Shown: piece after piece, positions 4,213 through 28,877 of the stretch
How positions within the stretch are numbered: position 1 is the first letter of the stretch
How the letters are laid out: each line of letters opens with the position of its first letter
Source of the DNA: a virus
Length of the DNA stretch: 28,877 bases
Reading direction: 5' to 3' (one strand)
IMG/VR virus record: IMGVR_UViG_3300025543_000141
Span: 1-28,877 of that record
Translations under genes and position numbers: made by a program
Notes under the pieces: model-generated
Database searches by the model: none
What the model was told of the DNA's origin: nothing
The model's input: the letters and a program-made list of their open reading frames with translations, nothing else

Positions 4213-5711
4213 AATACCTCCTCCATTGGGTAACATTTGCTATCATCTTTTGGTCTTATAATATGTAAGTGTTCCTTTGTTCTTGTTGCACCTACGTAAA
4301 ATAATCTTGTTTCATCATCTTGGTTCTTGTCATATGATTTCTTAGTATTAAAGGTAAGATCAGTGAGTAAGACTACATTGTCTTCTTCACCTCCTTTAGC
4401 ACTATGAATGGTTGATAGTTTTATCCGTGGTTCTTGATTCAACATCTCTCCATTACGTTTCATACGTCGTATATAAGTAATTCTTTTTTCTCCAGCTTGA
4501 TCAAAAGCTTCATACCAAATCTCATTAGTTCCAAGTCCATAGTCATTCTGTAATTGATCTAAGCTATACAGTCCATTCTTAACCATTGACTTTAATTTAT
4601 CCTTGTTCCATTTTTCAGTGCTGATGTACTTTGAAATATTTTCTATTTGTTTTGAATCTAACATCTGTCCTTTGATTAAATATTCCCAGTTAGTTGCAGC
4701 GATTTGAATATCTTTTTCATAAAGTTTTTTAAATCTATTCTCATAATAAAAACCTTTTTCCCTTAATGTTTCCTCTAGAGGATCTAACATTGATCTTGTT
4801 CTAGTTAACACCAACCATTTACCTGTTGTCATATTCACATCTTCAAAGTGATCATAAGAACTTAGTTTTCCTTCATGTTGTTTAGGGTTCCAACTTTTTT
4901 CTATTCTGTTATTAACCCTACCAATAATTGAGTTTGCTAATTGGTGTATCTTTTTTGGAACTCTTCTAGATTCTTTCAGTTCAATAATCTTTCCTTTTTG
5001 TGCAATGAATGAATCTACATCTGCACCAGCCCATCTAAATACAGCTTGATCATCATCTCCTGCAATAAAAGAATCAACTGTTTTATCAGTAATATGTTTA
5101 ACCATATCCCATTGCATTAAAGATAAATCCTGAGCTTCATCAATAAATACCACATCGAAGTTTGGTGATTTTTCTTCTTTGATAAAATTTAAAATCATAT
5201 CGTTGTAGTCAATAAGATTATATTCTTTCTTATATTCTACTAGTCTTTCACTTAAATGAACTAGAGTTGAGTATTCAACATCTTGATTATGTTCTTTCAA
5301 ATTATACTGCTCATCTATTGTAATGTTTCTAAGTTTAGCTAGATTGATTATTCTAAGGTAATCACTTTTAGTAGAAAATAATCCCGTCTCTTCTTCATCG
5401 TAATCATTGTAATCTAAAAACAAATGTTCTTTCCTACCCAGATCTTCGTAGTGTCTCTTCTGCATTACTTGATTTTTTTTCAACCCTAGTGATTTAAAAG
5501 CAAGAGAATGTAGTGTTCTAAAATAGGGAAGATCATCTTCTTCTAAATTAAATTTTTTCATTGCTCTTTCTTTAGCTTCATTTGCTGCTTTCTTTGTAAA
5601 AGCAAAGTAACCAATTCTATCTGGGTTAGTTGTCTTTAGATATTCATCTACCTTTTCTAACAATGTATGTGTCTTTCCTGTACCTGGTGGTCCGAATACA
5701 ATTGTCTTCAT
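4209..5711 (-). CDS. UvrD/PcrA-like superfamily 1 DNA helicase
   Basis: A 500-aa ATP-dependent helicase. SF1 motifs occur in order: Walker A GPPGTGKT (7-14), motif Ia AFTKKAA (37-43), a TLHSLAF segment near 66-72, motif II DEAQD (191-195), motif III GDDDQAVFRWAGAD (218-231), an LTRTR motif near 302-306, motif V STIHSAKGGEEDNVV (433-447) and motif VI RLFYVGATRTKEHLHI (469-484). It is shorter than cellular UvrD (about 720 aa), with reduced accessory subdomains, as is common in phage SF1 enzymes. It probably unwinds DNA at the phage fork or in recombination. It starts one base into the PrimPol stop (TAATG at 5711) with an AAGGAT ribosome-binding site, and ends in ATGA overlap with DUF3310, so it is a core member of the operon. 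Confidence 0.95.
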   Translation of the reverse strand: MKTIVFGPPGTGKTHTLLEKVDEYLKTTNPDRIGYFAFTKKAANEAKERAMKKFNLEEDDLPYFRTLHSLAFKSLGLKKNQVMQKRHYEDLGRKEHLFLDYNDYDEEETGLFSTKSDYLRIINLAKLRNITIDEQYNLKEHNQDVEYSTLVHLSERLVEYKKEYNLIDYNDMILNFIKEEKSPNFDVVFIDEAQDLSLMQWDMVKHITDKTVDSFIAGDDDQAVFRWAGADVDSFIAQKGKIIELKESRRVPKKIHQLANSIIGRVNNRIEKSWNPKQHEGKLSSYDHFEDVNMTTGKWLVLTRTRSMLDPLEETLREKGFYYENRFKKLYEKDIQIAATNWEYLIKGQMLDSKQIENISKYISTEKWNKDKLKSMVKNGLYSLDQLQNDYGLGTNEIWYEAFDQAGEKRITYIRRMKRNGEMLNQEPRIKLSTIHSAKGGEEDNVVLLTDLTFNTKKSYDKNQDDETRLFYVGATRTKEHLHIIRPKDDSKCYPMEEVL

Positions 5712-7231
5712 TAATATGGATCCTTTTCTTTTAAGACTTTAGGTGTATGAGTTTTTTCTGGTTTCTCAAATGCGTCCACTACCATAATTGTTGGTCTCTT
5801 CTTACCAATTACAATTCGATCATCACTACAATCACAATATTCTTTCAACATTTGCTGTGTAACTTGTGGTTTCTCTGGCCATTTCTTTCTAAGTAAATGT
5901 CCATGATAAAATTTATGAAATATAAATTTATGTTTACCTTCTTCTGTAAAGACGTTTCCATTTAGAATATCTTTTTTAGTAGTCTCCGCTGCAGTTCTAT
6001 TAGTACAGAACTCTTCTAAATGTTCTTTTAATTGATCTACCATTGAAGAACCTTTTGGTGCTTTGATTATTTCTACACCTTGTAATAACTGATCAACATA
6101 TGTTTCAAATTCTTTCACGGTTACTCTTTTTGGTTTCTTATTGATTTGTTTTACAACTGTTCTTCTAAATAATCTTTGTTCCATTAGACAATCAATGTTA
6201 TCTAATTTCACTCTATCCCCATCTACATTGACCCAATAGTAGGGTTCGTCTAGTTCAACTTTTTGAAGATCAGATAGTATTGGAAATACTGAGTCTCCAC
6301 CAATACCATACGTCCTAGTTCTACATAAATTTTTATCACAATGATTACACATTGGATCTTCATTACATTTAAAACCTAGATCTTTACCATCATTAAATTT
6401 TATTTTACCTTGAACAATTCTATCTTCTAATGGCCCTGAAGGATGTTTCTCAAAGTATTTATAATTAAATGCATTGATCTTTGTTTGCCAACTATCTGGC
6501 CATTTTCTTTTTGCATACTGTATGTATTGATAAATAATTCTATCTCTGCCATCTTTAATTTCAGTTTGAGTAATACTTTCCAAACAAGGTGGACCATCAC
6601 TAAACTCTGAGTCAGGTCTCTTGATTGTTAATGTTTCTAACTGTTCTGGAGTAAGTTTATATAAATCATGTAGTAAATAAAAACGTTCCAGATTAACAGC
6701 TTCACCTTGATCATTAAAGCAATATCTTGTTGTTTTATCACCATTAAAGTATGGTAAATTTAAAAAGTTTCCTGTATCATCTTTGGATTTTAATTCTACT
6801 TGTTTTGGAAATACTTCCGACCCCCCATAACCTAACACTGCACTAACTGATACTAACTTATCTCGCATTAGTTTTGCTTCAACAGGAACTGTTGTAAAAC
6901 AAAATACGTGTGCACCTCCACTCTTAGATCTAAATACTAATAAAGGTAAATCTAAACTTTTAATTTTATCTATTAATTTCTTGTGATCAAAACCTGCATA
7001 AGAATCGATATCAACACAACCCCATTTACAAGTATTAGTTTCATTAATCGGTATGATTCCTAAACTAGGTTCCGCACCGTTTAAATGGTCTTGCCACATA
7101 TTATCTGTGACCATACCTCTTTGAACGAAAGATTTACCTTTGATCTTTTGACCGTCGGCACCTTTCTTGTCGACGTATGTTAATCCATACGCACGTTCTA
7201 GCCCTGAGAATATCTCTTTAAACTTTTCCAT
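5711..7231 (-). CDS. PrimPol-like primase (archaeo-eukaryotic primase superfamily)
   Basis: A 506-aa protein. Residues 1-180 carry the AEP catalytic core: D74-I-D76 (CVDIDSY) as the metal-binding DxD, S104-G-G-A-H108 (SKSGGAHVF) as the sxH nucleotide motif, and a conserved segment at about 140-163 (EVFPKQVEL, then GNFLNLPYFNGD). This resembles primases of phages and of TOTE-type conflict operons. A four-cysteine motif follows (C289, C295, C298, C303, then RTRTYGIG), probably binding Zn or Fe-S, and then a C-terminal region that may be a helical or winged-helix domain. It likely makes primers, and perhaps DNA, replacing DnaG or T7 gp4. No Shine-Dalgarno is seen before the ATG at 7231; a GC-rich hairpin lies just upstream. 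The C-terminus EKDPY resembles that of the upstream protein. Confidence 0.85.
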   Translation of the reverse strand: MEKFKEIFSGLERAYGLTYVDKKGADGQKIKGKSFVQRGMVTDNMWQDHLNGAEPSLGIIPINETNTCKWGCVDIDSYAGFDHKKLIDKIKSLDLPLLVFRSKSGGAHVFCFTTVPVEAKLMRDKLVSVSAVLGYGGSEVFPKQVELKSKDDTGNFLNLPYFNGDKTTRYCFNDQGEAVNLERFYLLHDLYKLTPEQLETLTIKRPDSEFSDGPPCLESITQTEIKDGRDRIIYQYIQYAKRKWPDSWQTKINAFNYKYFEKHPSGPLEDRIVQGKIKFNDGKDLGFKCNEDPMCNHCDKNLCRTRTYGIGGDSVFPILSDLQKVELDEPYYWVNVDGDRVKLDNIDCLMEQRLFRRTVVKQINKKPKRVTVKEFETYVDQLLQGVEIIKAPKGSSMVDQLKEHLEEFCTNRTAAETTKKDILNGNVFTEEGKHKFIFHKFYHGHLLRKKWPEKPQVTQQMLKEYCDCSDDRIVIGKKRPTIMVVDAFEKPEKTHTPKVLKEKDPY

Positions 7232-7241
7232 AATAATATTT

Positions 7242-7273
7242 AAGCGGGCGTTTCCACTCTCGCTTTAACGCCC
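7242..7273 (-). other. GC-rich hairpin with an alternative pairing upstream of the PrimPol start
   Basis: The 59-bp gap between the ssDNA-binding-like gene and PrimPol holds a perfect 7-bp inverted repeat, GGGCGTT at 7246-7252 with AACGCCC at 7267-7273 (14-nt loop). An overlapping 5-bp alternative, AAGCG at 7242-7246 with CGCTT at 7261-7265, cannot form at the same time. No U-run follows on the minus strand (GCTTAAATATT), so a simple rho-independent terminator is unlikely. A regulatory or RNA-processing element controlling the downstream part of the operon is more plausible. Confidence 0.5.
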
Positions 7274-7290
7274 ACTACCTAGGATACTGT

Positions 7291-8058
7291 TTAGTATGGT
7301 GATTTTTCTGTTGTCTCAGTTTCAGAGTCGTGTTTAATTTCAACCTCACCTTTGCTAACTTTTTCAGCAAAGTCTTTGGCGATATTATAAACACCAGCGT
7401 CTGATACAGGTCCAACTTTAGTTACATCCCAACCAAACCATGTTCCTTTATCATTAGTCATTTGAACTGACTTTAGATTATAAACGTGGCTAAATGTTGG
7501 TGGAGTAAATAAACCGTTTTTACCCTGCATCTTTATAGACATCATCATAGAGTTCCAAGTTCTACTTACTTTCAACTGTGTTCTTGTCATAGACAATAAT
7601 GCAGTAGATGGTACTGATCCCAAAGTAACAACAAAATGATTTGCCGTGTTCTCAAGATAGTTACCATTAGGTAGCCTGTCTCTATTCATCTGGTCTCTTG
7701 TAGCTGTTTTAACAATAGGATCGTCTATTGAATACATCTTTACAAGACCTCCGCCTTCTCCTCTATCTTTCCACTCAAGAAATTTTCTATTGTAGAAAGC
7801 AGGAATTACATTAACTCCTTTTTCACCATTGAATAATTCTTTAGTGACAGAGTTCAATATCATCCCAGGTTCTGCGCCGTCAACGTATTTACCATCTCTT
7901 TTATTTATCTCTGGAGATAACTGTCCTAAGACTTTAAGAAAGGGTAAGGCAACATCGTCCTGACCAATATTTTGTGCTCCTGCGTTAGCATCAGCTTCAA
8001 ACATATTCGTAGCTAATGCACCTTCTGTTTTTTTCGTAAGGTTTGTTTCTTTTGACAT
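7291..8058 (-). CDS. Putative phage single-stranded DNA-binding protein
   Basis: A 255-aa soluble protein. The middle (about 35-225) alternates predicted strands with many aromatic and basic residues (FYNRKFLEWKDR, MTRTQLKVSRTWNSMMMS, TWFGWDVTKVG), and the last 25 residues are acidic (KHDSETETTEKSPY). A beta-rich core with an acidic, aromatic-ended tail is the architecture of T7 gp2.5-type ssDNA-binding proteins, whose tail contacts the polymerase and primase. The gene lies between a coiled-coil protein and the primase, where an SSB is expected. I do not identify a named family, so the function is inferred from architecture and position. Ribosome-binding site AAGGAA precedes the ATG at 8058, with a 2-nt gap from the upstream gene. 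Confidence 0.5.
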   Translation of the reverse strand: MSKETNLTKKTEGALATNMFEADANAGAQNIGQDDVALPFLKVLGQLSPEINKRDGKYVDGAEPGMILNSVTKELFNGEKGVNVIPAFYNRKFLEWKDRGEGGGLVKMYSIDDPIVKTATRDQMNRDRLPNGNYLENTANHFVVTLGSVPSTALLSMTRTQLKVSRTWNSMMMSIKMQGKNGLFTPPTFSHVYNLKSVQMTNDKGTWFGWDVTKVGPVSDAGVYNIAKDFAEKVSKGEVEIKHDSETETTEKSPY

Positions 8059-8060
8059 GA

Positions 8061-8615
8061 TTATTTTTTCCTTTTGATTGTTGTTTTATTTCCAACAAAG
8101 ATGCTGAAAATTTCCGTAGGCATTTCTTGACCTGCCTCAATACGTTGACGGACCAACGCTTTTAGAGTCATGGGTTCAACCTTTAATTTCTGCGCAGGTT
8201 GAAGGCCCTGACTCTTTGCAAGTTCAGCATATTCTGCTGCCTTGTTGTCTTCTCCACGGCCAAAAGATACTACCATTTCGTTTTTGATAATGTCTCCCAG
8301 ACCATTTTGTCGAAGCCAGTTAAAAGCCGATTCTCTATTAGCCACTGTAATGGTAGCATTGTAGAACGGCTTGACGTCAATCATAGAACCATCCATTAGT
8401 TTGAGTTGGGATAGACCCATCTCAGACATCATAGTAGGAATTACCTCTGCTGATATAACATCTAAATCTTTTTTCTTTTTCTTTAAGTTCTCTTCGATGC
8501 CCTCTATTTCTTTTACTAGAGACTCCATCTTTTGAACTTCATTAGATAGTGATTTTATATTTTCACTCTTATCTAATATATCTGTTTTGTCTTGCTCAAA
8601 GTTTATATTATTCAT
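8061..8615 (-). CDS. Conserved phage protein with N-terminal coiled coil
   Basis: A 184-aa protein of unknown function. Residues about 15-58 form a charged coiled coil containing a five-lysine run (EENLKKKKKDLDVISAEV). The remaining part (about 60-184) looks like a compact alpha/beta domain: MSEMGLSQLKLMDGSMIDVK, then NRESAFNWLRQNGLGDIIKN, and a basic C-terminus (NKTTIKRKK). A coil plus a small domain suggests an oligomeric DNA-associated protein, but no catalytic motif is visible. It starts with an AAAGGAA ribosome-binding site, overlaps the 3' end of the upstream gene by 8 nt and stops 2 nt before the putative SSB, so it is coupled to replication genes. A recombination or SSB-loading accessory role is possible but unproven. 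Confidence 0.7.
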   Translation of the reverse strand: MNNINFEQDKTDILDKSENIKSLSNEVQKMESLVKEIEGIEENLKKKKKDLDVISAEVIPTMMSEMGLSQLKLMDGSMIDVKPFYNATITVANRESAFNWLRQNGLGDIIKNEMVVSFGRGEDNKAAEYAELAKSQGLQPAQKLKVEPMTLKALVRQRIEAGQEMPTEIFSIFVGNKTTIKRKK

Positions 8616-9000
8616 CTATTTTTCCTTTCTCGTATAGATTAATTGCAATAGGATAATATTGTCTTTCTTGTTTATCCCATTTCAATACATTATATTTACC
8701 ATTTGTAATGTCAGATGCAATAGAACATGCAACACCTATAATTGCAGGATCTCCTGTAAGTAATAAATAATCTTTTTTCTTAAAAGATTCCAAACCTTTT
8801 TTTAATTTAAAAATTAATGGACCTGGAGAAAAAATCATTTGAGAAAATTCTGGTAATAAAAATTTAAATTTTCCATACTTAGCTGCACCCATAATATTTA
8901 TTTTAGGATTACCTGATTGAGTACCAGGAATTTCTTGAATAACATATACTGTTGGATCAGTAGTATTTTTTATTTCTTCGTATTTTATTCTTTCTGACAT
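8608..9000 (-). CDS. Conserved hypothetical protein, first gene of the replication operon
   Basis: A 130-aa protein from ATG at 9000 (MSERIKYEEIKNTTDP). An ATG at 9018 in the same frame would add six residues (MLYVLS). I prefer 9000 because the minus-strand promoter predicted at 9009-9036 would start transcription close to 9002, leaving the 9018 ATG outside the mRNA; in that case translation would be leaderless or nearly so. Neither start has a good Shine-Dalgarno. The protein has mixed alpha/beta character with a Lys-rich middle (FKLKKGLESFKKKDY) and a small-residue segment (GDPAIIGVACSIASDITNG). No family is recognised. As the first gene after the promoter it may be an early regulator or accessory protein, which is inference only. 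Confidence 0.65.
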   Translation of the reverse strand: MSERIKYEEIKNTTDPTVYVIQEIPGTQSGNPKINIMGAAKYGKFKFLLPEFSQMIFSPGPLIFKLKKGLESFKKKDYLLLTGDPAIIGVACSIASDITNGKYNVLKWDKQERQYYPIAINLYEKGKIDE

Positions 9001-9028
9001 TGACAAAACATATAACATTGTTTATATA
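9000..9028 (+). promoter_or_regulatory. Predicted sigma70-type promoter for the SNF2 helicase
   Basis: Consensus -35 TTGACA (9000-9005), a 17-nt spacer and -10 TATATA (9023-9028). The expected start is near 9035, giving a leader of about 23 nt with a purine-rich site (GAAAGAAGAAAA, 9041-9052) before the ATG at 9058. The region also has dyad symmetry about position 9018: TTGAC/GTCAA (9000-9004/9032-9036) and AACA/TGTT (9014-9017/9019-9022). Confidence 0.55.
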
Positions 9029-9036
9029 GAAGTCAA
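9009..9036 (-). promoter_or_regulatory. Predicted sigma70-type promoter for the minus-strand replication operon
   Basis: Read on the minus strand, -35 TTGACT (9031-9036), a 16-nt spacer and -10 TATATG (9009-9014). The -10 is weak (four of six). Transcription would begin near 9002, just before the ATG at 9000. It overlaps completely with the opposite-strand promoter at 9000-9028. Confidence 0.4.
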
Positions 9037-9057
9037 TACAGAAAGAAGAAAATATTT

Positions 9058-10488
9058 ATGAATTATAAATTTAAAACAAAGCCGTATGCACATCAATTAA
9101 CTGCGTTAGAAAAATCTTCTAACAAAGAAAGTTATGCTTATTTTATGGAGATGGGTACAGGTAAGACTAAAGTATTAATTGATAATATGGCGATGCTTTA
9201 TGATAAAGGTAAAATAGATGGTGCTTTAATTGTTGCACCTAAAGGTGTTATTGGCACTTGGTATAATCAAGAAATTCCAACACACTTACCTGATCATATA
9301 GAGAATGTGTCAGTTTTGTGGCAAGCAAATATTACAAAAGGTCAACAAGAAAAATTAAATGAATTATTAAAAAGTAGTGATAAGCTACATATTTTAATTA
9401 TGAATGTTGAAGCATTAAGTACATCTAAAGGTACAGACTTTGCAGCGTCGTTTCTTAGAACTCATAATACTATTATGGCAATCGATGAATCTACAACTAT
9501 AAAAAATTCTGCAGCTAAAAGAACTAAAAATATTTTAAAGCTTGCTCCCCAATCTAAGTATAGAAGAATTATGACTGGTTCTCCTATAACTAAAAATCCA
9601 TTAGATCTATATAGCCAGTGTGAATTTTTAAGTCCATGGTTATTGGACTTTGCATCTTATTACGCATTTAGAAATAGATATGCAGAAATGAAAACTATTC
9701 ATGCAAAAGGTAGATCAATACAAGTTGTAAACTTTTTTAAAAACATTGGTGAGTTATCAGAAAAATTAAAAGGTTTTTCTTATCGTGTACTAAAAGAAGA
9801 CTGCTTAGATTTACCTGATAAAATCTATGTAAAAAGAAATGTTGCACTTACTGAAGAACAATCAAAACTTTATAAACAGATGAAAACTATGGCTCTTGCT
9901 ATATTAAATGGTAAGCAGACAACTACAGTTAATGTTCTAACTCAGCTAATGAGACTACATCAAATTACCTGTGGTCACTTCACTGCTGATGATGGTAGCA
10001 CTCAAAATATAAAAAGTAATAGAATAAATGAACTAATGAATGTCTTAGAAGAAGTAGAAGGTAAAGCTATTATCTGGGCCAACTATCAAAAAGATATGTT
10101 TGAAATTAAAAAAGCTATTGAAAAAGAATATGGTGAAGGATCCGTGGTCGATTATTACGGACTCACTCCACAAGAAGATAGACAACCCAACATCAAACGT
10201 TTTCAAGAAGATCCTGAATGTAGGTTCTTTGTGGGTACTCCCCAAACAGGAGGTTATGGTATTACATTAACTCAAGCAAACACTGTTGTATATTATTCTA
10301 ATGGTTATGATCTTGAGAAAAGATTACAGTCAGAAGACAGAGCACACAGAATAGGTCAAAAAAAATCTGTGACCTATGTTGATTTAATGGCAGATGACAC
10401 CGTAGATGAAAAGATAGTTAAAGCTTTACGTAAAAAGATTAACATTGCATCAGAAGTTTTAGGTGAAGAATTAAGAGACTGGATATAG
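9058..10488 (+). CDS. SNF2-family superfamily 2 helicase/ATPase
   Basis: A 476-aa protein, the only plus-strand gene in the window. SF2 motifs are in order: Q-like KPYAHQ near 8-13, Walker A MGTGKT (32-37), motif Ia VAPKGVIGTW near 59-68, motif II D143-E-S-T (DEST rather than DEAH), motif III TGSP (173-176), motif V GGYGITLTQAN (398-408) and motif VI QSEDRAHRIGQ (424-434). The QxxDRAHRIGQ form is diagnostic of the SNF2/Rad54-like group. It is a minimal SNF2 core without extra DNA-binding domains. Phage SNF2 proteins are thought to remodel protein-DNA complexes, start replication or aid recombination. It diverges from the replication operon, ends beside a structured intergenic region, and probably has its own promoter. 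Confidence 0.93.
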   Translation: MNYKFKTKPYAHQLTALEKSSNKESYAYFMEMGTGKTKVLIDNMAMLYDKGKIDGALIVAPKGVIGTWYNQEIPTHLPDHIENVSVLWQANITKGQQEKLNELLKSSDKLHILIMNVEALSTSKGTDFAASFLRTHNTIMAIDESTTIKNSAAKRTKNILKLAPQSKYRRIMTGSPITKNPLDLYSQCEFLSPWLLDFASYYAFRNRYAEMKTIHAKGRSIQVVNFFKNIGELSEKLKGFSYRVLKEDCLDLPDKIYVKRNVALTEEQSKLYKQMKTMALAILNGKQTTTVNVLTQLMRLHQITCGHFTADDGSTQNIKSNRINELMNVLEEVEGKAIIWANYQKDMFEIKKAIEKEYGEGSVVDYYGLTPQEDRQPNIKRFQEDPECRFFVGTPQTGGYGITLTQANTVVYYSNGYDLEKRLQSEDRAHRIGQKKSVTYVDLMADDTVDEKIVKALRKKINIASEVLGEELRDWI

Positions 10489-19526: not shown

Positions 19527-20338
19527 TATAGAAGCCCTGCTAGTCCACCATTTTTAAAAGATCCCATTGAGTCTGAACCACCTTTGTCTGCTGCTCCCAT
19601 ACCGCTACTAGCACCTGAAGGACCATCCATAAAACCACTATCATATCCTGCTTGATAACCACCCGTACCTGCAGCTTTATTTGCTGCTGCCATAGATTTA
19701 GTTGCTCGCTCTCTTGCTGCTTCTTGAGCTGCTTCTTGAGCTTGAAGTTTAGCTAAATTTTTAAGAGATATTTTTTTACCTAATTTTTGTCGCTCTAACA
19801 TTTTAGAAATTCTTGATGTTCTTCTTCTAGAAGATCTTGCAGCATCTGTATAATAACCTCCTAAAGCATTTTGTTTATTTAAATCCTCTGGATCATAAAC
19901 ATTTCCAAATTCATCTATAACGCTGGCTCCTAAAGGTCTATTTTCAAATTGACTTGTTATTCCAGATAAGATTTGCCCTGCAAAAGGTATACCTGTTATT
20001 GCTGATAGTATTCCATTAAGAGCAGTTTTTCCTAAATCAAAACCTTTGCCAACACCAGACTTTGCTTTATCTGTTAGAGTTTCGATTCCACTTATTGCTT
20101 TTTCAAAAGGATTTTGAACAGCAGGATTATTAAAAAATTGTCTGTTTGTTAATCTACTTTTTAAACTTGTGGGTGCATCAATAAAATTATATCCTGGTAT
20201 TTCTTGATAAGGTTCATTATCAATTACAAAATCATTTATTTGATTTTGATAGCCAAACGGATTAGGGTCTCCCTGAACTCCACCCATAATCTTATCTTGA
20301 TATGGATTAGTATTATATAGAGTGTTAATTATTGCCAT
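19526..20338 (-). CDS. Virion protein with Arg-rich middle and Gly-rich C-terminal tail
   Basis: A 270-aa protein. The N-terminal third is Asn/Pro-rich (NTLYNTNPYQDKIMGGVQGD). A Gly/hydrophobic segment lies at about 95-130 (GILSAITGIPFAGQILSGIT), then a basic patch (ARSSRRRTSRISKMLERQKL, about 166-185), an Ala-rich helix (QAQEAAQEAARERATKSMAA) and a flexible Gly/Ser tail ending SFKNGGLAGLL. It shares with the 17808-18827 protein the order of basic, glycine and hydrophobic zones, suggesting an internal or ejection-linked virion component. No enzyme motif is seen. The start shares one base with the stop of the stabilisation-protein gene (TAATG at 20338). Confidence 0.55.
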   Translation of the reverse strand: MAIINTLYNTNPYQDKIMGGVQGDPNPFGYQNQINDFVIDNEPYQEIPGYNFIDAPTSLKSRLTNRQFFNNPAVQNPFEKAISGIETLTDKAKSGVGKGFDLGKTALNGILSAITGIPFAGQILSGITSQFENRPLGASVIDEFGNVYDPEDLNKQNALGGYYTDAARSSRRRTSRISKMLERQKLGKKISLKNLAKLQAQEAAQEAARERATKSMAAANKAAGTGGYQAGYDSGFMDGPSGASSGMGAADKGGSDSMGSFKNGGLAGLL

Positions 20339-22509
20339 TATCGTCTTCCATCAGGTTGTGTGTCTAATCTAAAAGTACCTAACTTCCAACTTTGAGAAGC
20401 TCCAGTATTAGCTACTTTTAAAGATATAGCTCTTGCTCTTGCACGAGTATCTACCTTATCCGTAGAACTTGTAATTGTAAAGGGTCCAAGTGGTGAACTT
20501 GCTTGAGAATTGTTTGGATAGTTTCTTAATTGTAATGTTACTTGAGTATTACCTGTTTGTGATAAAAAGTCAGGCACAAATCTTCTAATCTTCATAAGGT
20601 GCTCACCATCTCCTTTAAAGTCAGCGATACCTGTCATTTGATTACCTACAATTCTTTGAGTAATGTCAAAGTCACCTGATTCAATATTAGAGGTAATAGC
20701 TGTAACTGTTCCACTAGCCACCTGATCAGTTCCTTTTTCATGTTCAAAATATATTGTACTTCCTTCAGTATTACCTTGAACATCAAACGATGCATCATCA
20801 CCTGCATTAAAAAAAGTTGCGTGAGGTAAACCAAATACAGAAGAGTCTTGCCATGCTCCTCTTGCTAAAGTTCCTGTTGTCCACACAGGTCTTTGAGGTG
20901 ATGAGTCCATATAATTATAACTTACGCATCTATTTAAAACAGTTGAACTTTCTGTACAATAGAACCAAGTGATTTCACCAAACAAATTATTTAATCCAAC
21001 ATTAATTAATTGATTAGCTGTTGTATTTAAATCATCAAAAACAAAATCTTCTACTAAACAAATCATAGTCTCAAGATTACCAGAGTATTTAAAGAAACCA
21101 TTTTCCGAAAACCAATACGCAGCACCATCAACTTCTAATGCAGCGTTCTGTCCAATCAATCCACAGTTAGTTCCTACTTGTTGAAAACCAAATGTAAATG
21201 GTTGACCAATAAATCTCATAGTAAATAGTGAAGTATCTGTCCAAATATAAGTTGCATCTCTACCTCTAACCGCACCTACAATTTTAGATCCATCTGCAAG
21301 TCTTTGTGTACCTGCGGTATTAACTGCTGTTGGTTGGTATGTATTAATATCTTCTTGGTTTGAAAATCTAATAAACATTTCATCTTGAGTTGTTGGATCA
21401 CCAATGGTTAATTCTGTTCCAAAGAATACTAAGTGTCTGTCAGGTGTAGATACTAACATATCTCGTGATGCAGTTGGTGCACCTGATATAATACTTGCTC
21501 TTACTGTTACAGCATTCGTTGCATTTGAGTCCCATTCAAATACTTGTGCATTATGAATTAGTGCAATTACTTTATCTCCAAAGTTATCAATCGACCATAA
21601 ACCTGGATCAACAACTAAATCACCAGATGCAGCTTCTCCCCATGCAATGTAGTCTGAACTGTTTAATACAGTTGCACCATTAGAATGCGTTGCAGCTGTT
21701 GTGTTTCTAACTCCTCTAGTAACACCTGTTAAAGTGTTTGTTGATATACCTGTGTATGAAATTTCTTCTGTTCCTATTTGAATAAAGTTTGTACCTGAAC
21801 TTGGAAACTGAGATGCATCAGTTAATACAATAGTTGTTGTAACAGCATTGATACCCCCATTTAAAGTTGTTGTTGCTTCACCTGTTACAGTTCCGCCCCA
21901 AGAAGCTAATCCCCAACCAAAACCAGGTAATTGTTCTGCAGGTCCTACTGGATAATAATGCTGTACTCTAATGCCACCAGATGTTGTAGCACCTGAACCT
22001 GTTTCATTAGATGGCATTGTAATAGTTAAAGTTGTTCCTGTTGGTACACTTGTTACCATAAATTTTTTATCATCAAAGTCTGATGCTGAAAAATTAGAAT
22101 TAGTTATTGCTGTAAAATTATCTAAAAGAATAATATCATTTTCTTGAATGTTATGATCCGTGCTAAATGTTATCGTGACTGTTGGCGAACCATTCGTTGT
22201 ACTAAATGCATTTGATAAAGTTGTTGTAGTTTTAATAGGGTGAATATCATAATAAACACCACCTGTATAAGCGTATAAAATTCTGTTTGTACCTATGATT
22301 GCAAACTTGTTTCCTGATTTATTGACTAAATGATGTAAAGCTCTTGCAGCTCCTGTAAGTTTGGATTCTCCTAATTGTGACCAACCACCAATTTTTTCAG
22401 GTGTACCATATCTAAAACGTACGTTGTCACCATCAACCCATTGTCCTTCGGCTGTGGTCTCTGTAATCTGTTTATTGAATCCTGGTTGGAATCCTATTTT
22501 TTGTAGCAT
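20338..22509 (-). CDS. Phage stabilisation protein (P22 gp10-like tail hub)
   Basis: A 723-aa protein. The N-terminus (LQKIGFQPGFNKQITETTAE, then WVDGDNVRFRYGTPEKIGGW) is the hallmark of the P22 gp10-like stabilisation family, which closes the portal channel and links the tail to the head. Most of the rest is strand-rich, with repeated WT/GxW turns as expected for a propeller-like hub (SPQRPVWTTGTLARGAWQDS). It is longer than P22 gp10 (about 470 aa): extra Thr/Ser-rich beta modules sit at about 93-175 and 211-283. The second one ends in the TGISTNTLTGVTRG pattern seen in other phage tail proteins. The ribosome-binding site GAGGTT precedes the ATG at 22509. It is the downstream neighbour of the oxygenase cluster. 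Confidence 0.82.
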   Translation of the reverse strand: MLQKIGFQPGFNKQITETTAEGQWVDGDNVRFRYGTPEKIGGWSQLGESKLTGAARALHHLVNKSGNKFAIIGTNRILYAYTGGVYYDIHPIKTTTTLSNAFSTTNGSPTVTITFSTDHNIQENDIILLDNFTAITNSNFSASDFDDKKFMVTSVPTGTTLTITMPSNETGSGATTSGGIRVQHYYPVGPAEQLPGFGWGLASWGGTVTGEATTTLNGGINAVTTTIVLTDASQFPSSGTNFIQIGTEEISYTGISTNTLTGVTRGVRNTTAATHSNGATVLNSSDYIAWGEAASGDLVVDPGLWSIDNFGDKVIALIHNAQVFEWDSNATNAVTVRASIISGAPTASRDMLVSTPDRHLVFFGTELTIGDPTTQDEMFIRFSNQEDINTYQPTAVNTAGTQRLADGSKIVGAVRGRDATYIWTDTSLFTMRFIGQPFTFGFQQVGTNCGLIGQNAALEVDGAAYWFSENGFFKYSGNLETMICLVEDFVFDDLNTTANQLINVGLNNLFGEITWFYCTESSTVLNRCVSYNYMDSSPQRPVWTTGTLARGAWQDSSVFGLPHATFFNAGDDASFDVQGNTEGSTIYFEHEKGTDQVASGTVTAITSNIESGDFDITQRIVGNQMTGIADFKGDGEHLMKIRRFVPDFLSQTGNTQVTLQLRNYPNNSQASSPLGPFTITSSTDKVDTRARARAISLKVANTGASQSWKLGTFRLDTQPDGRR

Positions 22510-22523
22510 ATAACCTCATCCTA

Positions 22524-23171
22524 TTACATATTCCTTATTGGTGGAATACCCAATAATGGTCGTTTATCAAACTTATTTTTTTCAGCGAACGGACCATTCC
22601 TGTGGTTATAATGTAAAAACACCTGACCACAAACTTGACCTTCAAAAGGCTCCCGCCAATGTTCGAGTTCGCAACCACTATATACTAACATATCCCCTAC
22701 TTCAAGCAAGACTTTCGTGCCTTCTGGAGCGTTGGGTTTATGTATATTTTTGTATTCATCAATGACAGAATCTGCACCTGTACCATCTATAAAGATTGGC
22801 CATGGGTCACCTCCTAAATTAATAGTAGTTGATATTTCACAACTAGGTCTGTCTTTGTGTCTTTTTAATTCATCACCGTGTTTATATAACCTTGCATAGG
22901 AATAAGTAGGACATAGATCTAGGCCAGTTTCATGAGCCATTACTGGCAATACTTTAACCAACAGAGTCTCCATTACAGGATCTGCATAATGTGAGTATGT
23001 ATTTGGTATTTGTTGATCGGTCCATGTACCCAACATTCCATTGTCATAGGTAATATTATTTTCATACATAAATTTAACTGCATCTCTTTTAAGAAGAAAA
23101 TAGTTAAATATAAAATTAGCTAGCTCGTAGCTAATAGCCTTTTTAATTACTTGATATTTATTAAAAGCCAT
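22524..23171 (-). CDS. 2OG-Fe(II) oxygenase-like protein (fourth of the cluster)
   Basis: A 215-aa protein with the double-stranded beta-helix signature of Fe(II)/2-oxoglutarate dioxygenases: metal ligands H105-x-D107 (LKRHKDRPSCEIS) and distal H171 (GCELEHWREPF). The residue expected to anchor 2-oxoglutarate about ten positions after the distal His is not basic (CGQVFLHYN around 181-189); R173 lies close by and might substitute. Strands about 112-127 (EISTTINLGGDPWPIFI) and GDMLVYSG support the fold. Such enzymes hydroxylate proteins, nucleic acids or small molecules; the substrate is unknown. It overlaps the previous oxygenase by 11 nt and sits just upstream of the stabilisation protein. 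The family call is good; activity is uncertain because of the missing Arg. Confidence 0.8.
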   Translation of the reverse strand: MAFNKYQVIKKAISYELANFIFNYFLLKRDAVKFMYENNITYDNGMLGTWTDQQIPNTYSHYADPVMETLLVKVLPVMAHETGLDLCPTYSYARLYKHGDELKRHKDRPSCEISTTINLGGDPWPIFIDGTGADSVIDEYKNIHKPNAPEGTKVLLEVGDMLVYSGCELEHWREPFEGQVCGQVFLHYNHRNGPFAEKNKFDKRPLLGIPPIRNM

Positions 23172-23739
23172 GTTGTATAAAATTAAAACTTACTGATATC
23201 CTTATATCATTTGATTGATTAGGTTCAACACTATGCCATAACCATGCAGGAAACATTATAATACGTCCTGGAAATGGATCAATATCTGCATCTCTCCATA
23301 AATGTTTCGGAGGTTTTCCCTCTTTTCTATTAGGCATTACTATTTGTGCTCCAGGTCTAGGGTCATATATTTTAAGTCTACCAGCTTGTGGGTTTGACTT
23401 AACATAATACACACCTGAGAATAATGAGTTTGGATGTATGTGTGGTTTGTTCATTCCATCTTTTGGATTTATGTTAGCCCACATATTACCAAGAATAGGT
23501 TCTCTATCTAACCACTCTTCTTTAAATACATCTTTACACATGATCATTAGCTCGTTGACTAAGGGTTGATACTCTGGCTTTGATGCCATGTCGGTCGTAG
23601 AATGCCAGCCTTTGTAATTTGTTTTCTGTACTCCTTGATCTTGATTAGACCAATTGACAATGTCTTGTGTTAGTTTATCATTATCTAATTGTACATCTTT
23701 ACCAAAAACACTGGTTGGAAAAAATTCTTCTCTAATCAT
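23161..23739 (-). CDS. Putative 2OG-Fe(II) oxygenase, TIGR02466-like (third of the cluster)
   Basis: A 192-aa protein similar in pattern to the TIGR02466/PF13759 group of putative 2OG-Fe(II) oxygenases: H100-I-H102-P-N-S-L-F-S-G (KPHIHPNSLFSGVYYVK), the strand GRLKIYDPRPGAQ, then GRIIMFPAWLWHSVEPN with distal H169, and R180 eleven residues later for 2-oxoglutarate (DIRISVSFNF). The usual HxD/E acid is absent in the first motif; HxH takes its place, which may be a family feature. The N-terminus has the FFPTSVFGKDV start common in the group. Its start overlaps the preceding oxygenase stop as ATGA (23736-23739). Substrate unknown. Confidence 0.78.
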   Translation of the reverse strand: MIREEFFPTSVFGKDVQLDNDKLTQDIVNWSNQDQGVQKTNYKGWHSTTDMASKPEYQPLVNELMIMCKDVFKEEWLDREPILGNMWANINPKDGMNKPHIHPNSLFSGVYYVKSNPQAGRLKIYDPRPGAQIVMPNRKEGKPPKHLWRDADIDPFPGRIIMFPAWLWHSVEPNQSNDIRISVSFNFIQHGF

Positions 23740-24329
23740 CTAAAAGGCTTTCCTCCAAACCAACAAACTAAAGACTGCCTCATACCTTTAGTTACTGGAT
23801 TAACTCTGTGATTTAAAAATGATGCAAATATAATAGCGTGTCCTTGTTTAAGTTCTGCAAATTTACCAGGTGCCATTAGTTCAAGGTCTCCTCCTTCAAA
23901 CTCTGATGGATCATTTAACAACAACGTCATTGATATTTTTCTTACAGGTGGTTCGTGTTGCATGTTCACATCACAATCCATATGCCAATCATAGAACCCT
24001 CCTTCAGGGTATTCTGTAAATTGTGCATTCTCTGTAACTTGTATATCACCAAAACCAAAATGGTTTTCATTTGTTTTTTGTATAAAGTTATTAAGATCAC
24101 GATACATATGTCCCATTTCTTTAAATGGTATCCAAGATATTGTAGTTACTCTTTTCTTTGTATCTGTTCCTCCACCTGGTTTATTCATACCCACTTGTGC
24201 TTGTTGTGGTTTTTGTGCTCTACCTGATGCAATAATCTGTCTGCATTGTTCGGGTGTAAAGAGTGGTGTAGTTGTTTGAACTATCCAACTTTTCCATTTA
24301 GGTTCTGTAATATGTCTATTCTCGTACAT
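23736..24329 (-). CDS. PKHD/prolyl 4-hydroxylase-type 2OG-Fe(II) oxygenase (second of the cluster)
   Basis: A 197-aa protein and the most canonical of the four. H116-x-D118 (YDWHMDCDV) and H174 (LNHRVNPVTKG) bind Fe(II), and R184 (GMRQSLVCWFGG) binds 2-oxoglutarate. The surrounding strands, FTEYPEGGFYDWHMD, ISMTLLLNDPSEFEGGDLEL and GHAIIFASFLNHRV, match PiuC/PKHD-type hydroxylases, and the N-terminal FTPEQCRQII is the usual opening helix. All catalytic residues are present, so it is expected to be active. Substrates of phage members are not established. It shares a base with the stop of the first oxygenase (TAATG at 24329) and is in ATGA overlap with the next. No signal peptide: cytoplasmic. 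Confidence 0.93.
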   Translation of the reverse strand: MYENRHITEPKWKSWIVQTTTPLFTPEQCRQIIASGRAQKPQQAQVGMNKPGGGTDTKKRVTTISWIPFKEMGHMYRDLNNFIQKTNENHFGFGDIQVTENAQFTEYPEGGFYDWHMDCDVNMQHEPPVRKISMTLLLNDPSEFEGGDLELMAPGKFAELKQGHAIIFASFLNHRVNPVTKGMRQSLVCWFGGKPFR

Positions 24330-24997
24330 TAACTTACTCCCCTGTTTCTAATTGGGTCATAATGGACATCCATGTTTGCAGCTAGTGTTCGTCTCATACC
24401 TGGTCCATTAAATGGATAAACACAATGTCTCATGTCATATGGAAAGATATAAAAATCTCGTTCTTTAATATTGGGTTGATAGTCTACATTTGCAAACATA
24501 CCTGAAACTGAACCTAGTATTTGTAATTTACCATTTTGTGGTGACTGTGCTGCAGAATATTCTACACCATAAGACTCGGGTAATTTTAAAACCATAACAC
24601 TTGATAGACCTGTAAACAATGATCCTTGATGCACGTGCACTGGATTATACTCATGCTCAAACATAGTGTTAACCCATACAGAATTAAAATGCATATTATA
24701 TTCTCTCACTTTATTCCACTCTAAATAATGTTTAAATTTTGATTCAAACCATTGCATTACATTGTGTGGTAAATGATTATGTCTAGTCATTTTAGGACTA
24801 TCTTCCCCATTAAAAAATAAACTATGTTCTTTTTCAATCTTACCCACCAATTGTTTATTAGCTGGTTTTAATTCAGGATATTTTGTTTCGTAAATATGAT
24901 TAATGATATTATAAACATCTAAAGGCACTTGGTATTTTAATACCGACTGACCTAAAAATATAAAATCAAATTTATTTTGGCTTAGATCCGAGGTCAT
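24329..24997 (-). CDS. Putative 2OG-Fe(II) oxygenase, divergent (first of the cluster)
   Basis: A 222-aa protein related in pattern to the 23161-23739 product: H121-V-H123-Q-G-S-L-F-T-G (NPVHVHQGSLFTGLSSVM), then DFYIFPYDMRHCVYPFNG with H191, and R202/R203 (GPGMRRTLAANMDV) at the 2-oxoglutarate position. As in its paralogue the acidic ligand of HxD is missing, and here the residue two after H123 is Gly. The N-terminal 100 residues are helical and hold a second His-rich stretch (TRHNHLPHNV). The fold assignment is moderate, supported by the neighbouring oxygenases. It overlaps the upstream coiled-coil gene by 26 nt and has no alternative nearby ATG. Substrate unknown. Confidence 0.65.
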   Translation of the reverse strand: MTSDLSQNKFDFIFLGQSVLKYQVPLDVYNIINHIYETKYPELKPANKQLVGKIEKEHSLFFNGEDSPKMTRHNHLPHNVMQWFESKFKHYLEWNKVREYNMHFNSVWVNTMFEHEYNPVHVHQGSLFTGLSSVMVLKLPESYGVEYSAAQSPQNGKLQILGSVSGMFANVDYQPNIKERDFYIFPYDMRHCVYPFNGPGMRRTLAANMDVHYDPIRNRGVS

Positions 24998-25652
24998 TAG
25001 TCAATTGTTCTTTCTTGTTATAGATCATCTCTCCTGATTTTTTAACTCTTTCTATCGTTTGTAATTGTCCTAATACATTAAACACTTCAGGTTGACTTGA
25101 GCCTGATGTTAATGTCTCTGCTTTGTTTTTCATAATCAAATGATATGAATCTAATTGGTGTCTATTGACATCTTGAGTATCAAATGAACCATCATCAAAT
25201 TCTTTTTTAAGTGTTGACCATAGTTTAATTTCTCTCATTCTGTCCCTAGCTACAAGTTGCATGTTAGCTACAGAATAAGTTTTTTCATCTATGTCTATTT
25301 GAAGTAGTTCTCTTTTTAAAGGATCTTCTTCTGTCTTTAATTTTTCTTGTAATCTTTTTAATTTAACTTCATTACGTCTAGCATCAAATGAAAGACTCAT
25401 TAAATTTTCTAGGAATACGTTCTGTTCTCTAACACACTGCCAATATTTTGAAGCTTTAGTTGGGTATTTTGCATCTTGTAAAACAGACATTCTCATTTCT
25501 GTTTCAGTTCTAAACACTTGTTTTTTAGTCCAAGTATCTCTAAGCTCATTAGTCATTTCTTTAAATTCCTTGACATCATTTGGGTCAAGTAAATTATTTA
25601 AGCTAGGAGCTTCTTTTTCTATTAGTGCATGTATGTTTCTTTTTTCAGTCAT
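24972..25652 (-). CDS. Coiled-coil conserved phage protein upstream of the oxygenases
   Basis: A 226-aa mostly helical, highly charged protein. Heptad-like segments lie at about 27-45 and 93-125 (RNEVKLKRLQEKLKTEEDPL), with a polar C-terminus (NKKEQLTNDLGSKPK). There is no membrane, signal or catalytic motif and I do not recognise a family. It leads the oxygenase gene run: a predicted promoter lies directly upstream (25680-25707), and its 3' end overlaps the first oxygenase by 26 nt. The first oxygenase has only a weak ribosome-binding site of its own, so its translation is probably coupled to this gene. It could be a scaffold, chaperone or substrate-presenting partner, which is inference from position only. 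Confidence 0.7.
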   Translation of the reverse strand: MTEKRNIHALIEKEAPSLNNLLDPNDVKEFKEMTNELRDTWTKKQVFRTETEMRMSVLQDAKYPTKASKYWQCVREQNVFLENLMSLSFDARRNEVKLKRLQEKLKTEEDPLKRELLQIDIDEKTYSVANMQLVARDRMREIKLWSTLKKEFDDGSFDTQDVNRHQLDSYHLIMKNKAETLTSGSSQPEVFNVLGQLQTIERVKKSGEMIYNKKEQLTNDLGSKPK

Positions 25653-25708: not shown

Positions 25709-27535
25709 TTACGATGTTGTAATATTACTTGCAGGCGCTGCAGCTGTTGTTTCACCTGTAAATTCTTCTGTTGTAGTAACTGCTGTCCCACCACTATTAG
25801 CTCCTGATGCCATTAGTGCAGATGTTGAAGTCCCAGCTCCAGCTCCTCCTTGTCTTGCAGTTGCCATTGAAGCTCTTGTTGACCAAGATGTTCCATCATA
25901 TCCATTTGTATTTCCTGTTGTTGGAGGAATACTTCCAGAAAAAACTAACCCTGCTGTTAAAATTCCAGCTGCTGATGCCAATGTAATATTTGTTGGATAA
26001 ACATTTACAGCAGTCCAAGCAGTTCCATTATATTCTTCTACATTATTAACATTAGGAGGTGAACCTCCAACAGCGACTGCTGCTGTTTGTGTTCCAAAAG
26101 CTGCTGCTCTTTCTCTAGCAGTATTCATATTCCCACCTGCTGACCAATCAGTTCCGTCATATTCATAGGACTCTGCATTATTGCCTCCAGAAGTGCTACC
26201 ACCTATTGATAACGCAGCAGTTTGTGTTCCAGCTCCTGCAAGCTGTGAAATGTCTGCGGGCATATCATTAACTTCACTCCAAGAAGATCCGTTCCATTCT
26301 TCGGTTTCTGATTTTCTAGTGCTAGTTACTACACCACCAAAAAGTAATGCAGCTGTTTGAGCAGCCTGTGTTGCTTCTCCTGCTCCATATCTTCCTGTGT
26401 TTAATGTCGGTGCTGCAGTCCAAGATGAACCATTATATAATTCACTATTATTTAAAGTATCAGCGCCACCCATTATAATTGCAGCTGTTTGTAATCCATT
26501 TCCTGCAGTAGTTCCTAAAGCGGTATTTGTATTCCCACCACTAGCCCATGCTGCAGCTGTAAATGTGTTTGTTGAAAAATTAAATTCTTCTGTTGCATCA
26601 AATGCTTCTCCACCGCCGCCTGGTCCAATTCCCCCTGCAATCCAAGTCCCTGATGCTGTGTTTCTTCCTGTTCCAGCTCTTGTTCTTGCAGTTGCTAAAG
26701 TAGCTGGTGATGTTGCCCAAGAGGTTCCATCCCAACTTTCAATTGTTGTTTGTGCTGCTTCACTTGGAGGTCTATCTCCACCGAAAGCTAACCCATCTGT
26801 TTGAGTTCCTGATCCTGCTATTTGGTTTCTTCCAGTATTCATTGTATTACCAGATGTCCAATTAGTTCCATTATATACTTCTGTTATATTACTTTCACTT
26901 GGAAAACCTCCAGCAAGAACTGCTGCGGTTTGTGTTCCAAAAGCTGCTTGACCACCTTTAGCTGTATTTCTAGCATTTGCTGCTGTCCAGCTAGTGCCAT
27001 TCCAATGATGCATTGCTGTGCTATCGTAAGCTTGAGTTGAAACAACAGCAGTATTAACTGCTCCTATTCCTTGCATAGAGTTACCACCTGTTGGAAAACT
27101 ATTTCCTGAAGTCCAACTTGATCCATCATAATTATATGTTTCTGCTGGTGAACCTGGAGCTGGCGAACCTGGTACTCTTCCACAATATGCTATTGCTGCT
27201 GTCTGTGTTCCAGCGGTTCCTGCAGAATATCTATTAGTTGGATAAGTTCCACCTGCTGTCCAACCTGATCCATTGTATTCTTCTACAGCAGATAAATAAG
27301 TAGAATCATCTAGACCTCCAACAACTAAACCTGCAGTTCCAGTTCCAACACCAAAACCGTATAAAGATCTTTTATTTGTCATGTTTGCTGAGCTACTAGT
27401 AGACGCAACACCGATACCTTGCACACGCAAGTTGCCTGTAGTAGAATTATACCATACCTGTCCGTCTTCTGCTCCTGCAGGATCTGCTGATAAGTATTTA
27501 ACTCTCAGTCCTCTGATTTCATTGTAGCCAGCCAT
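25709..27535 (-). CDS. Kelch-like beta-propeller repeat fibre / putative receptor-binding protein
   Basis: A 608-aa protein. Residues 1-45 form an anchor-like N-terminus (GLRVKYLSADPAGAEDGQVW, then YNSTTGNLRV). The rest is about eleven kelch/galactose-oxidase-like repeats of roughly 45-50 aa. The pattern is EEYNGSSWT, a variable loop, then NTAR, then GTQTAALAVGG; examples are YNGSGWTAGG (about 87), YDGSSWTSGN and WNGTSWTAAN. One odd blade has EEFNFSTNTFTAAAWASGG. The C-terminus ends EEFTGE and then a Ser/Thr tail. The repeats should fold into one or two beta-propellers, as in host-recognition or glycan-binding fibres. A paralogue lies at 27882-28877. Ribosome-binding site AAGGAA precedes the ATG at 27535. 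Repeat identity is certain; the receptor role is inferred. Confidence 0.75.
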   Translation of the reverse strand: MAGYNEIRGLRVKYLSADPAGAEDGQVWYNSTTGNLRVQGIGVASTSSSANMTNKRSLYGFGVGTGTAGLVVGGLDDSTYLSAVEEYNGSGWTAGGTYPTNRYSAGTAGTQTAAIAYCGRVPGSPAPGSPAETYNYDGSSWTSGNSFPTGGNSMQGIGAVNTAVVSTQAYDSTAMHHWNGTSWTAANARNTAKGGQAAFGTQTAAVLAGGFPSESNITEVYNGTNWTSGNTMNTGRNQIAGSGTQTDGLAFGGDRPPSEAAQTTIESWDGTSWATSPATLATARTRAGTGRNTASGTWIAGGIGPGGGGEAFDATEEFNFSTNTFTAAAWASGGNTNTALGTTAGNGLQTAAIIMGGADTLNNSELYNGSSWTAAPTLNTGRYGAGEATQAAQTAALLFGGVVTSTRKSETEEWNGSSWSEVNDMPADISQLAGAGTQTAALSIGGSTSGGNNAESYEYDGTDWSAGGNMNTARERAAAFGTQTAAVAVGGSPPNVNNVEEYNGTAWTAVNVYPTNITLASAAGILTAGLVFSGSIPPTTGNTNGYDGTSWSTRASMATARQGGAGAGTSTSALMASGANSGGTAVTTTEEFTGETTAAAPASNITTS

Positions 27536-27856: not shown

Positions 27857-27885
27857 ATTATAAACTTATTATTAATCATTATCAA
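27857..27885 (-). promoter_or_regulatory. Near-consensus sigma70-type promoter for the small fibre-associated gene
   Basis: On the minus strand, -35 TTGATA (27880-27885), a 17-nt spacer and a perfect -10 TATAAT (27857-27862). The -35 overlaps the stop codon (27882-27884) of the upstream fibre gene. It is the best promoter match in the window. Confidence 0.6.
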
Positions 27886-28877
27886 CTAGATGTTAGGGTT
27901 TTGTAATCTAGTTGAACAATTTCTCCAGTAAATTCTTCTACACCTGTTTCAGCAGGAGATCCACCTATAGATAATCCTGCAACGTTAGTTCCTGCACCTG
28001 ATCCTTCTGCCGTAGCACCACCCATTGCAGGTTTTGAAGACCAAGCACTACCATCATATTCAACAGTTGTAGCTACTTTTGAAGGTTGGTATCCTCCAAA
28101 CGCTAAAGCTGCTGTTTGAGTTGCTCCACATCCCATTAAACCAGAAGTTCCTGTTGGTAATGCTCCTCCTGCTGTCCAAGACGTTCCACCATATTCTTCA
28201 GTATTAGCATATTTAGTTGAATTGGGATTATCTGATCCACCAAAAACTAAACCAGAAGTTTCTATACCAGCTCCTGCATAATATTGTCTAGCTTGAGATA
28301 AAGCTCCTCCTGCTGTCCAAGACGTTCCATTATATTCTTCTGTTAAAGATGAAACAGCAGGTCCTGTTGTTCCACCTGCAGCTAATGCTGCAGTTTGTAT
28401 TCCAAAACTTGCAAAAGATCTTCTAGCTGTAGACATAGAATTTGGTTGAGTAGCCCAACTTGATCCATCATATTCTTCAGTAGCTCCTGAAACTGGATTA
28501 TTTGCATATGTAATTGCTGCAGTCTGAGTTCCACACCCACCTGCATATTGTCGTGCTGTATTTAAACTAGGTGCTCCAGACATAGCAGTACCATTATAAC
28601 TTTCAACTGCTGTTGATGCTCCAGGAGGTCCAACTCTACCACCAACAGCTAATGCTGCAGTTTGAGTTCCAGCACTTGACATAGATTCTCTTCCAGTTGA
28701 TAAAGCTCCACCACTAGCCCATGTCGCTGCTATTGGGGAGTAGATTGAAAAATTAAATTCTTGAGTTATAGCTGCGGCTGGATCATTTCCTGCAAAAACA
28801 GCTGCTGTGCTAGTTCCAAATGCTGCTGCTTGTTTAGCGTTTGTCCCTAATGTTGCAGAGCTTGTTGTCCAAGTAGA
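27882..28877 (-). CDS. Second kelch-like repeat fibre protein, 5' end cut by window edge
   Basis: The frame stays open from the stop at 27882-27884 to the right edge (331 codons), so the apparent ATG at 28682 is internal and the true start lies outside. The visible part has about seven kelch-like units: YDGSSWATQPNSMSTAR, then YNGTSWTAGGALSQAR, then YGGTSWTAGGALPTG, each with GTQTAALAVGG-type strands between. One blade begins EFNFSIYSPIAATWASGG, the counterpart of the odd blade in the 25709-27535 protein. Both proteins end with EEFTGE and a Thr/Ser tail, so they are paralogues. It is probably a receptor-binding or tail-fibre protein. The DNA contains exact in-phase repeats. Confidence 0.8.
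   Translation of the reverse strand, partial: STWTTSSATLGTNAKQAAAFGTSTAAVFAGNDPAAAITQEFNFSIYSPIAATWASGGALSTGRESMSSAGTQTAALAVGGRVGPPGASTAVESYNGTAMSGAPSLNTARQYAGGCGTQTAAITYANNPVSGATEEYDGSSWATQPNSMSTARRSFASFGIQTAALAAGGTTGPAVSSLTEEYNGTSWTAGGALSQARQYYAGAGIETSGLVFGGSDNPNSTKYANTEEYGGTSWTAGGALPTGTSGLMGCGATQTAALAFGGYQPSKVATTVEYDGSAWSSKPAMGGATAEGSGAGTNVAGLSIGGSPAETGVEEFTGEIVQLDYKTLTSS
28162..28329. repeat. Exact 27-bp direct repeat, one kelch unit apart
   Basis: Positions 28162-28188 and 28303-28329 are identical over 27 bp. They are 141 bp (47 codons) apart and encode the same TSWTAGGA part of two adjacent repeats. Identity at DNA level, including third positions, implies recent duplication or gene conversion of a blade. 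Confidence 0.85.

Follow-up and report, generated by a model that had tools for sequence, protein, structure and literature searches.

Do four adjacent 2OG-Fe(II) oxygenase-like genes, lodged between a coiled-coil gene and the tail hub gene of a virus, act as one unit, and if so, on what? The question is posed by IMG/VR virus record IMGVR_UViG_3300025543_000141, whose 28,877 bases are the window analysed here and whose PolA is 62–64% identical to those of 023Pt_psg01 and HTVC027P, which makes its source phage a relative of the HTVC023P-type pelagiphages. Using a combination of profile searches, structure models and comparison of related loci, we tentatively propose that genes A, B, C and D, probably together with E, form a co-inherited cassette of divergent 2OG-Fe(II) oxygenase-fold proteins that may modify fibres or receptor-binding proteins. 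With the genes contiguous, inherited together and placed next to those for fibres, there is a concrete target to look for, namely oxidised residues on the fibres.

A packed block upstream of the tail hub

Genes A to D follow one another on the minus strand with overlaps of 1 nt (A/B), 4 nt (B/C) and 11 nt (C/D), while E overlaps A by 26 nt and only 14 nt separate D from the start of the hub gene, so that the five genes from E to D look like a single compact block (Table 1). The coordinates and strand thus agree with the preliminary description, which had reported the three overlaps and had placed the run between a coiled-coil gene and a gp10-like hub. The hub gene, directly downstream of D, is the 3′ border of the cassette. 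On the other side lie two fibre-like proteins with the same type of repeat, which in the 608-aa protein is kelch propeller-like with a weak Kelch_4 match (PF13418, 0.21).

Table 1. Genes of the cassette and its flanks (positions in the window)
Feature	Position	Strand	Length (aa)	Assignment
Hub gene	20338-22509	-		P22 gp10-like tail hub / virion structural protein; phrog_3287, 3.8e-107
Gene D	22524-23171	-	215	phrog_2954 family; double-stranded beta-helix by model
Gene C	23161-23739	-	192	TIGR02466 / PF13759 2OG-Fe(II) oxygenase, by family match
Gene B	23736-24329	-	197	PKHD/PiuC-like 2OG-Fe(II) oxygenase, by family match
Gene A	24329-24997	-	222	2OG-Fe(II) oxygenase fold, PF13759-like
Gene E	24972-25652	-	226	coiled-coil-like
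Fibre-like protein	25709-27535	-	608	phrog_27227, 2e-91 (function unknown)
Second fibre-like protein	27882-28877	-		phrog_27227, 1.5e-44; open at window edge

A scan of regulatory sites was uninformative, with 23 promoter-like sites against a shuffle mean of 26.6 and 4 terminator-like sites against 2.2. Elsewhere in the window, nearly all long genes lie on the minus strand, an exception being the helicase gene (phrog_62) at 9058-10488 on the plus strand; the gene at 821-1465 matches phrog_3704, labelled ‘ferredoxin’, at 3e-70 but lacks a Pfam match, and the label may be doubtful.

Fold and active-site residues of the four proteins

Family profiles place B and C directly. C matches TIGR02466 with 131.1 bits (4.6e-38) against a curated cut-off of 62.5, PF13759 at 3e-27, and the structures 3bvc and 2rg4 at ~1e-17; these two TIGR02466 proteins have the HxH seen in C but, unlike the window genes, are marine alphaproteobacterial proteins of unknown function rather than phage proteins. 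Its predicted metal ligands, H100/H102 and H169, form a His triad present in 275 of 275 relatives, and R180 stands at a position held by R or K among them. B matches PF13640 (8e-15), phrog_61 (4e-36) and the PKHD/YbiX models, and is similar at 3e-8 to the PiuC structure 9ghl, with a C-terminal HxD…H…R core common to both. Among 291 relatives the motif (H116/D118/H174/R184) is conserved, the substitutions D→E and R→K occurring in ~10%. Against the PKHD-type hydroxylase YbiX/PiuC equivalog, B scores 60.5 bits and does not reach the curated cut-off of 143, a shortfall large enough that we regard it as a relative of PiuC/YbiX and not as PiuC itself. On these matches, both B and C are assigned as 2OG-Fe(II) oxygenase-type beta-helix proteins.

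For A and D, sequence profiles say less. A passes the cut-off for PF13759 in the Pfam profile search (1.1e-7) and, with 16.9 bits, does not reach the curated cut-off of 62.5 for TIGR02466, leaving it PF13759-like only. D has no Pfam or NCBIfam match and matches PHROG families alone, the best being phrog_2954 (2.9e-49), and these are labelled ferrochelatase, which led us to model the structures of D and A, in each case with an alignment of relatives. The D model is very confident (pLDDT 94.8, pTM 0.90), and its structure matches include P4H, PHD2, PiuC and SnoN at Z 14–15.6; PHD2 and bacterial P4H, at Z 14–15, are 13–14% identical to D. The A model is of moderate confidence (pLDDT 78, pTM 0.78) and matches 3bvc/2rg4 at Z 14 and AlkB and P4H at Z ~13. 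Both models thus match solved 2OG-oxygenase beta-helices. By its model, D is a double-stranded beta-helix of the 2OG-Fe(II) oxygenase type, PHD2/P4H-like, and A, by sequence plus model, is likewise assigned as a 2OG-oxygenase-type double-stranded beta-helix protein. The 2OG-oxygenase-like pattern first noticed in all four genes is therefore borne out by family matches for B and C, sequence and model for A, and the model for D.

The active-site residues are not the same in all four proteins. In B and D the metal-site pattern is HxD/E…H, represented in D by H105/D107 and H171, a triad found in 280 of 280 relatives. A and C carry HxH…H, the TIGR02466/PF13759 pattern, which predicts three His ligands; in A these are H121/H123, kept in 152 of 152 relatives, and H191, kept in 151 of 152. 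An Arg or Lys for the 2OG carboxylate stands at the expected place in A (R202/R203), B and C, whereas D and its 280 relatives invariably have Gln (Q183 in D), unlike PHD2 and bacterial P4H. The motifs named in the preliminary description, including an HxD in D without a clear 2OG-binding Arg, are accordingly conserved across 152–291 relatives. The Gln in place of Arg may give D another way of binding 2OG and, like the three-His site of A and C, could mean that 2OG chemistry is altered or lost. Median dN/dS values of 0.17–0.43 for A to D (a rough Nei–Gojobori estimate, which synonymous saturation may inflate) point to purifying selection on all four genes and, with the near-invariant metal sites, suggest that A to D are conserved and probably active enzymes.

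These results bear on the annotation of D as a ferrochelatase acting on haem in partnership with the oxygenases. The label attached to phrog_2954 has entered the literature, where phrog2954 is counted as a seasonal ferrochelatase auxiliary metabolic gene (AMG; PMC11561400), and where, for this phage group, a ferrochelatase is presented as the partner and every ferrochelatase gene is reported to have an adjacent 2OG oxygenase (PMC9599517). However, the PF00762 ferrochelatase signature is absent from the window and from seven annotated phages carrying phrog_2954, in a search that was positive in eight of the control genomes; the confident model of D is a beta-helix whose listed matches are mostly 2OG oxygenases; and HxD…H is invariant. 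No ferrochelatase chain appears among the PDB matches listed for D, although absence from a ranked list alone is not decisive. Taken together, the missing signature, the model and the invariant motif indicate that the label is almost certainly wrong for D, and a haem-directed role of this kind is extremely improbable. The reported ‘ferrochelatase partner’ of 2OG oxygenases is very likely another oxygenase. With phrog_2954 relabelled as an oxygenase fold, the haem/iron partner story (PMC9599517, PMC11561400) would fall, to be replaced by more of the same enzyme class. We found no published correction of this label in the literature searched.

Other labels in related clusters invite similar caution. 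Members of phrog_274 (‘DNA endonuclease V’) and phrog_1644 (‘minor coat protein’) occur at L285:5468-6007, L251:1942-2436, L300:1399-1881 and L062:6841-7440; in part they show weak, sub-threshold Pfam 2OG-oxygenase matches, the last with DUF6445 as well, and their labels are probably also wrong there.

Spread and inheritance of the cassette

The preliminary description had considered four such genes in a row notable, on the view that marine phages often carry one or two. Neither point survives comparison, as runs of three to nine are common and the totals of 2OG-Fe(II) oxygenases reach 10 in S-CREM1 and 24 in S-SCSM1 (PMC9964418). Among 33 loci picked by the tail-hub gene only and with enough upstream sequence, at least two oxygenase-family genes lie directly upstream of the hub in 28, at least three in 26, at least four in 17, and none in 5, fractions that are rough because a single phage group supplied the loci and some of them may be near-duplicates. 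Runs of three or four, unbroken or almost so, occur in HTVC023P, HTVC033P, 023Pt_psg01 and HTVC027P, and they reach five in HTVC008M, five or six in Mosig and nine in S-CREM1. Co-located oxygenases have already been described in the HTVC023P-type pelagiphages (Wittmers 2022, PMC9599517), which have the phage group and gene families in common with the window: HTVC023P carries homologues of B, C and D in a row, and HTVC033P those of B and C, a small ORF, and then D. That account describes the oxygenases as often close by ‘although not adjacent’ and calls the partner a ferrochelatase, whereas A to D of the window are contiguous and D has an oxygenase fold by model. The T4-like marine phages HTVC008M, Mosig, S-RIM44, S-CREM1 and S-ShM2 resemble the window in their mix of superfamilies and in gene overlaps, often beside tail-fibre or neck genes, and phrog_2954 is present in HTVC008M, Mosig, S-RIM44 and S-CREM1, the four searched for it. 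They differ from the window in viral group, gene sets and order, and in some of them halogenase, haem oxygenase or DUF6445-like genes are present as well. The A–D cassette thus belongs to a known sort of marine-phage gene cluster, and what is new is the correction of phrog_2954, the joint divergence of A to D apart from the hub, and the usual place of such clusters after tail-fibre genes across podo- and myoviruses.

Gene order and divergence both suggest that the genes travel together. The order E-A-B-C-D-hub is conserved, A-B-C-D-hub predominates in related contigs (loci picked by A or D), and the gene directly before D belongs to the B or C family in ~257 of the 290 D-anchored places with a visible upstream gene. 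In a set of 69 distinct loci, A to D have pairwise distances that correlate with one another (r 0.36–0.64; Mantel p 0.001, the lowest that 999 permutations allow), whereas the correlation with those of the adjacent hub is r 0.01–0.21 only, even though the two halves of the hub track each other at r 0.92. Selection of the loci partly by similarity to A or D may affect the size of the effect but hardly the contrast. We suggest from this co-divergence and the decoupling of the hub that the cassette appears to recombine as a block, separately from the flanking hub. E co-diverges with A at r 0.84 and is therefore probably part of the cassette. Its similarity to the cyanophage family phrog_1409 is weak (9e-5), and we rejected E as a proven homologue given an hhalign probability of 23% over 47 columns; phrog_1409 sits in fibre regions, not always by annotated oxygenases. 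Genes E and F had no match in the phage collection. In several loci (for example L039:5651-6070), an ORF of ~139 aa with weak ParB_N similarity lies between C and D.

The earlier conjecture that these are not four unrelated hitchhikers gains support from the order kept in most related contigs, from the co-divergence of A to D and from the hub, which hardly tracks them. Conversely, the genes could be unlinked auxiliary metabolic enzymes, concerned with iron, with nitrogen or with the oxidation of small molecules, that have accumulated in a locus that tolerates them, as suggested by published readings of such genes as AMGs or PiuC-like iron genes (PMC11561400; PMC13184970) and by gene content that differs between loci. 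We consider this unlikely in view of the shared divergence and order, the purifying selection on all four genes, and the recurrence of a B- or C-family oxygenase directly before D.

Fibre neighbourhood and candidate targets

The surroundings of the cassette suggest the tail fibres as a candidate target. In 112 of the 153 D loci with enough sequence, and in 27 of 34 D loci of a distant set, a gene that a permissive profile assigns to fibre families lies upstream of the oxygenase run, no more than three genes away. In S-ShM2, two tail fibres and further genes of unknown function precede three 2OG oxygenases and a ‘minor coat protein’ gene; in S-RIM44, the oxygenase run comes after a fibre gene of 10 kb, two genes for fibre assembly and two halogenases, and before the neck genes; and in Mosig the oxygenase cluster has a tail fibre on one side and neck genes on the other. 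Across podo- and myoviruses, such clusters mostly come after the genes for tail fibres, and flavin halogenases accompany some of them. Fe(II) oxygenases have moreover been listed among the genes of hypervariable host-recognition islands (PMC3909814). This listing and the fibre-gene neighbourhood make a late modification step on tail fibres or on receptor-binding proteins our leading idea, which we hold tentatively; the wider suggestion that the target is a virion protein, fibre or envelope component is plausible from the place beside fibre genes. Position in a fibre region is not evidence of substrate, as unrelated cargo genes also accumulate there.

Several comparisons qualify the link to particular fibres. 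Fibre type, including fibre glycine content (p 0.47; Fisher p 1.0), showed no association with the presence of oxygenases among the hub-anchored loci, where only 5 are negative and the fibre is not visible in several. The distances of A to D correlate only weakly with those of the fibres (r 0.08–0.33). Many neighbouring fibres have glycine-rich tips (PF21722, Gly_rich_2), with kelch-like repeats in the window fibres instead. The five hub loci without a recognised oxygenase (L314, L320, L325, L327 and L328) have fibre-like genes upstream of the hub, several of them LamG- or repeat-like by eye, and the site thus looks like the position of a modular fibre cassette. Large myoviruses also have many oxygenases elsewhere in the genome.

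If fibres or receptor-binding proteins are the substrate, A to D would act as Fe(II)/2OG hydroxylases that are co-translated and produced late in infection, each oxidising a different residue or residue class on newly made tail-fibre or receptor-binding proteins. Such oxidation could change fibre folding or the adsorption surface, and phages would exchange the set as a whole, within a hotspot of host recognition. The 10 oxygenases of S-CREM1 are not named among the detected virion proteins in the main text of that study (PMC9964418), which is consistent with action inside the cell. A broader and rather doubtful extension is that a transferable module for oxidative, in some cases halogenating, tailoring is common to marine podo- and myoviruses. 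In it, several 2OG oxygenases, recurrently including the ‘ferrochelatase’ family and joined by flavin halogenases in some relatives, would act in series on new tail-fibre or receptor-binding proteins and so diversify the adsorption surface.

Two other substrates have to be weighed against fibre modification. The oxygenases might promote infection by hydroxylating proteins of the host's translation machinery or envelope, a reading prompted by the top Foldseek matches of D, which include the Pseudomonas putida P4H with EF-Tu and the ribosomal histidine hydroxylase MINA53, and by the closeness of B to PiuC/YbiX. These matches, however, are of fold only, with 10–16% identity, and both the site beside late fibre genes and the block swapping there fit a virion target better, so that we judge host proteins an improbable target. 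Modification of DNA or RNA bases is hinted at by the AlkB-like aspect of the A model and by the P-SSM2 relative of A, which lies between DNA polymerase and UvsX and not beside fibres. It nevertheless seems very unlikely, as the cassette is in the structural region rather than with the replication genes at 1472-10488, and no gene for thymidylate synthase or for thymidine hypermodification was identified in the window, although the record is a fragment.

Other enzyme genes accompany some of the related clusters. Flavin-dependent (tryptophan) halogenase genes lie in or beside them at L231:3972-5528, L271:7191-8756, L285:4260-5471, L337:3218-5865 and S-RIM44 104633-107744, as two in tandem in L337 and S-RIM44. 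We rejected the halogenase as a fixed partner, its presence in these loci and in S-CREM1 covering only part of the relatives; none was recognised in the window, and S-SSM5 and S-SSM7 have no oxygenase annotated beside their flavin halogenase. In Mosig (L006, 8969-10205), genes for haem oxygenase and phycocyanobilin:ferredoxin oxidoreductase follow directly after the oxygenase run.
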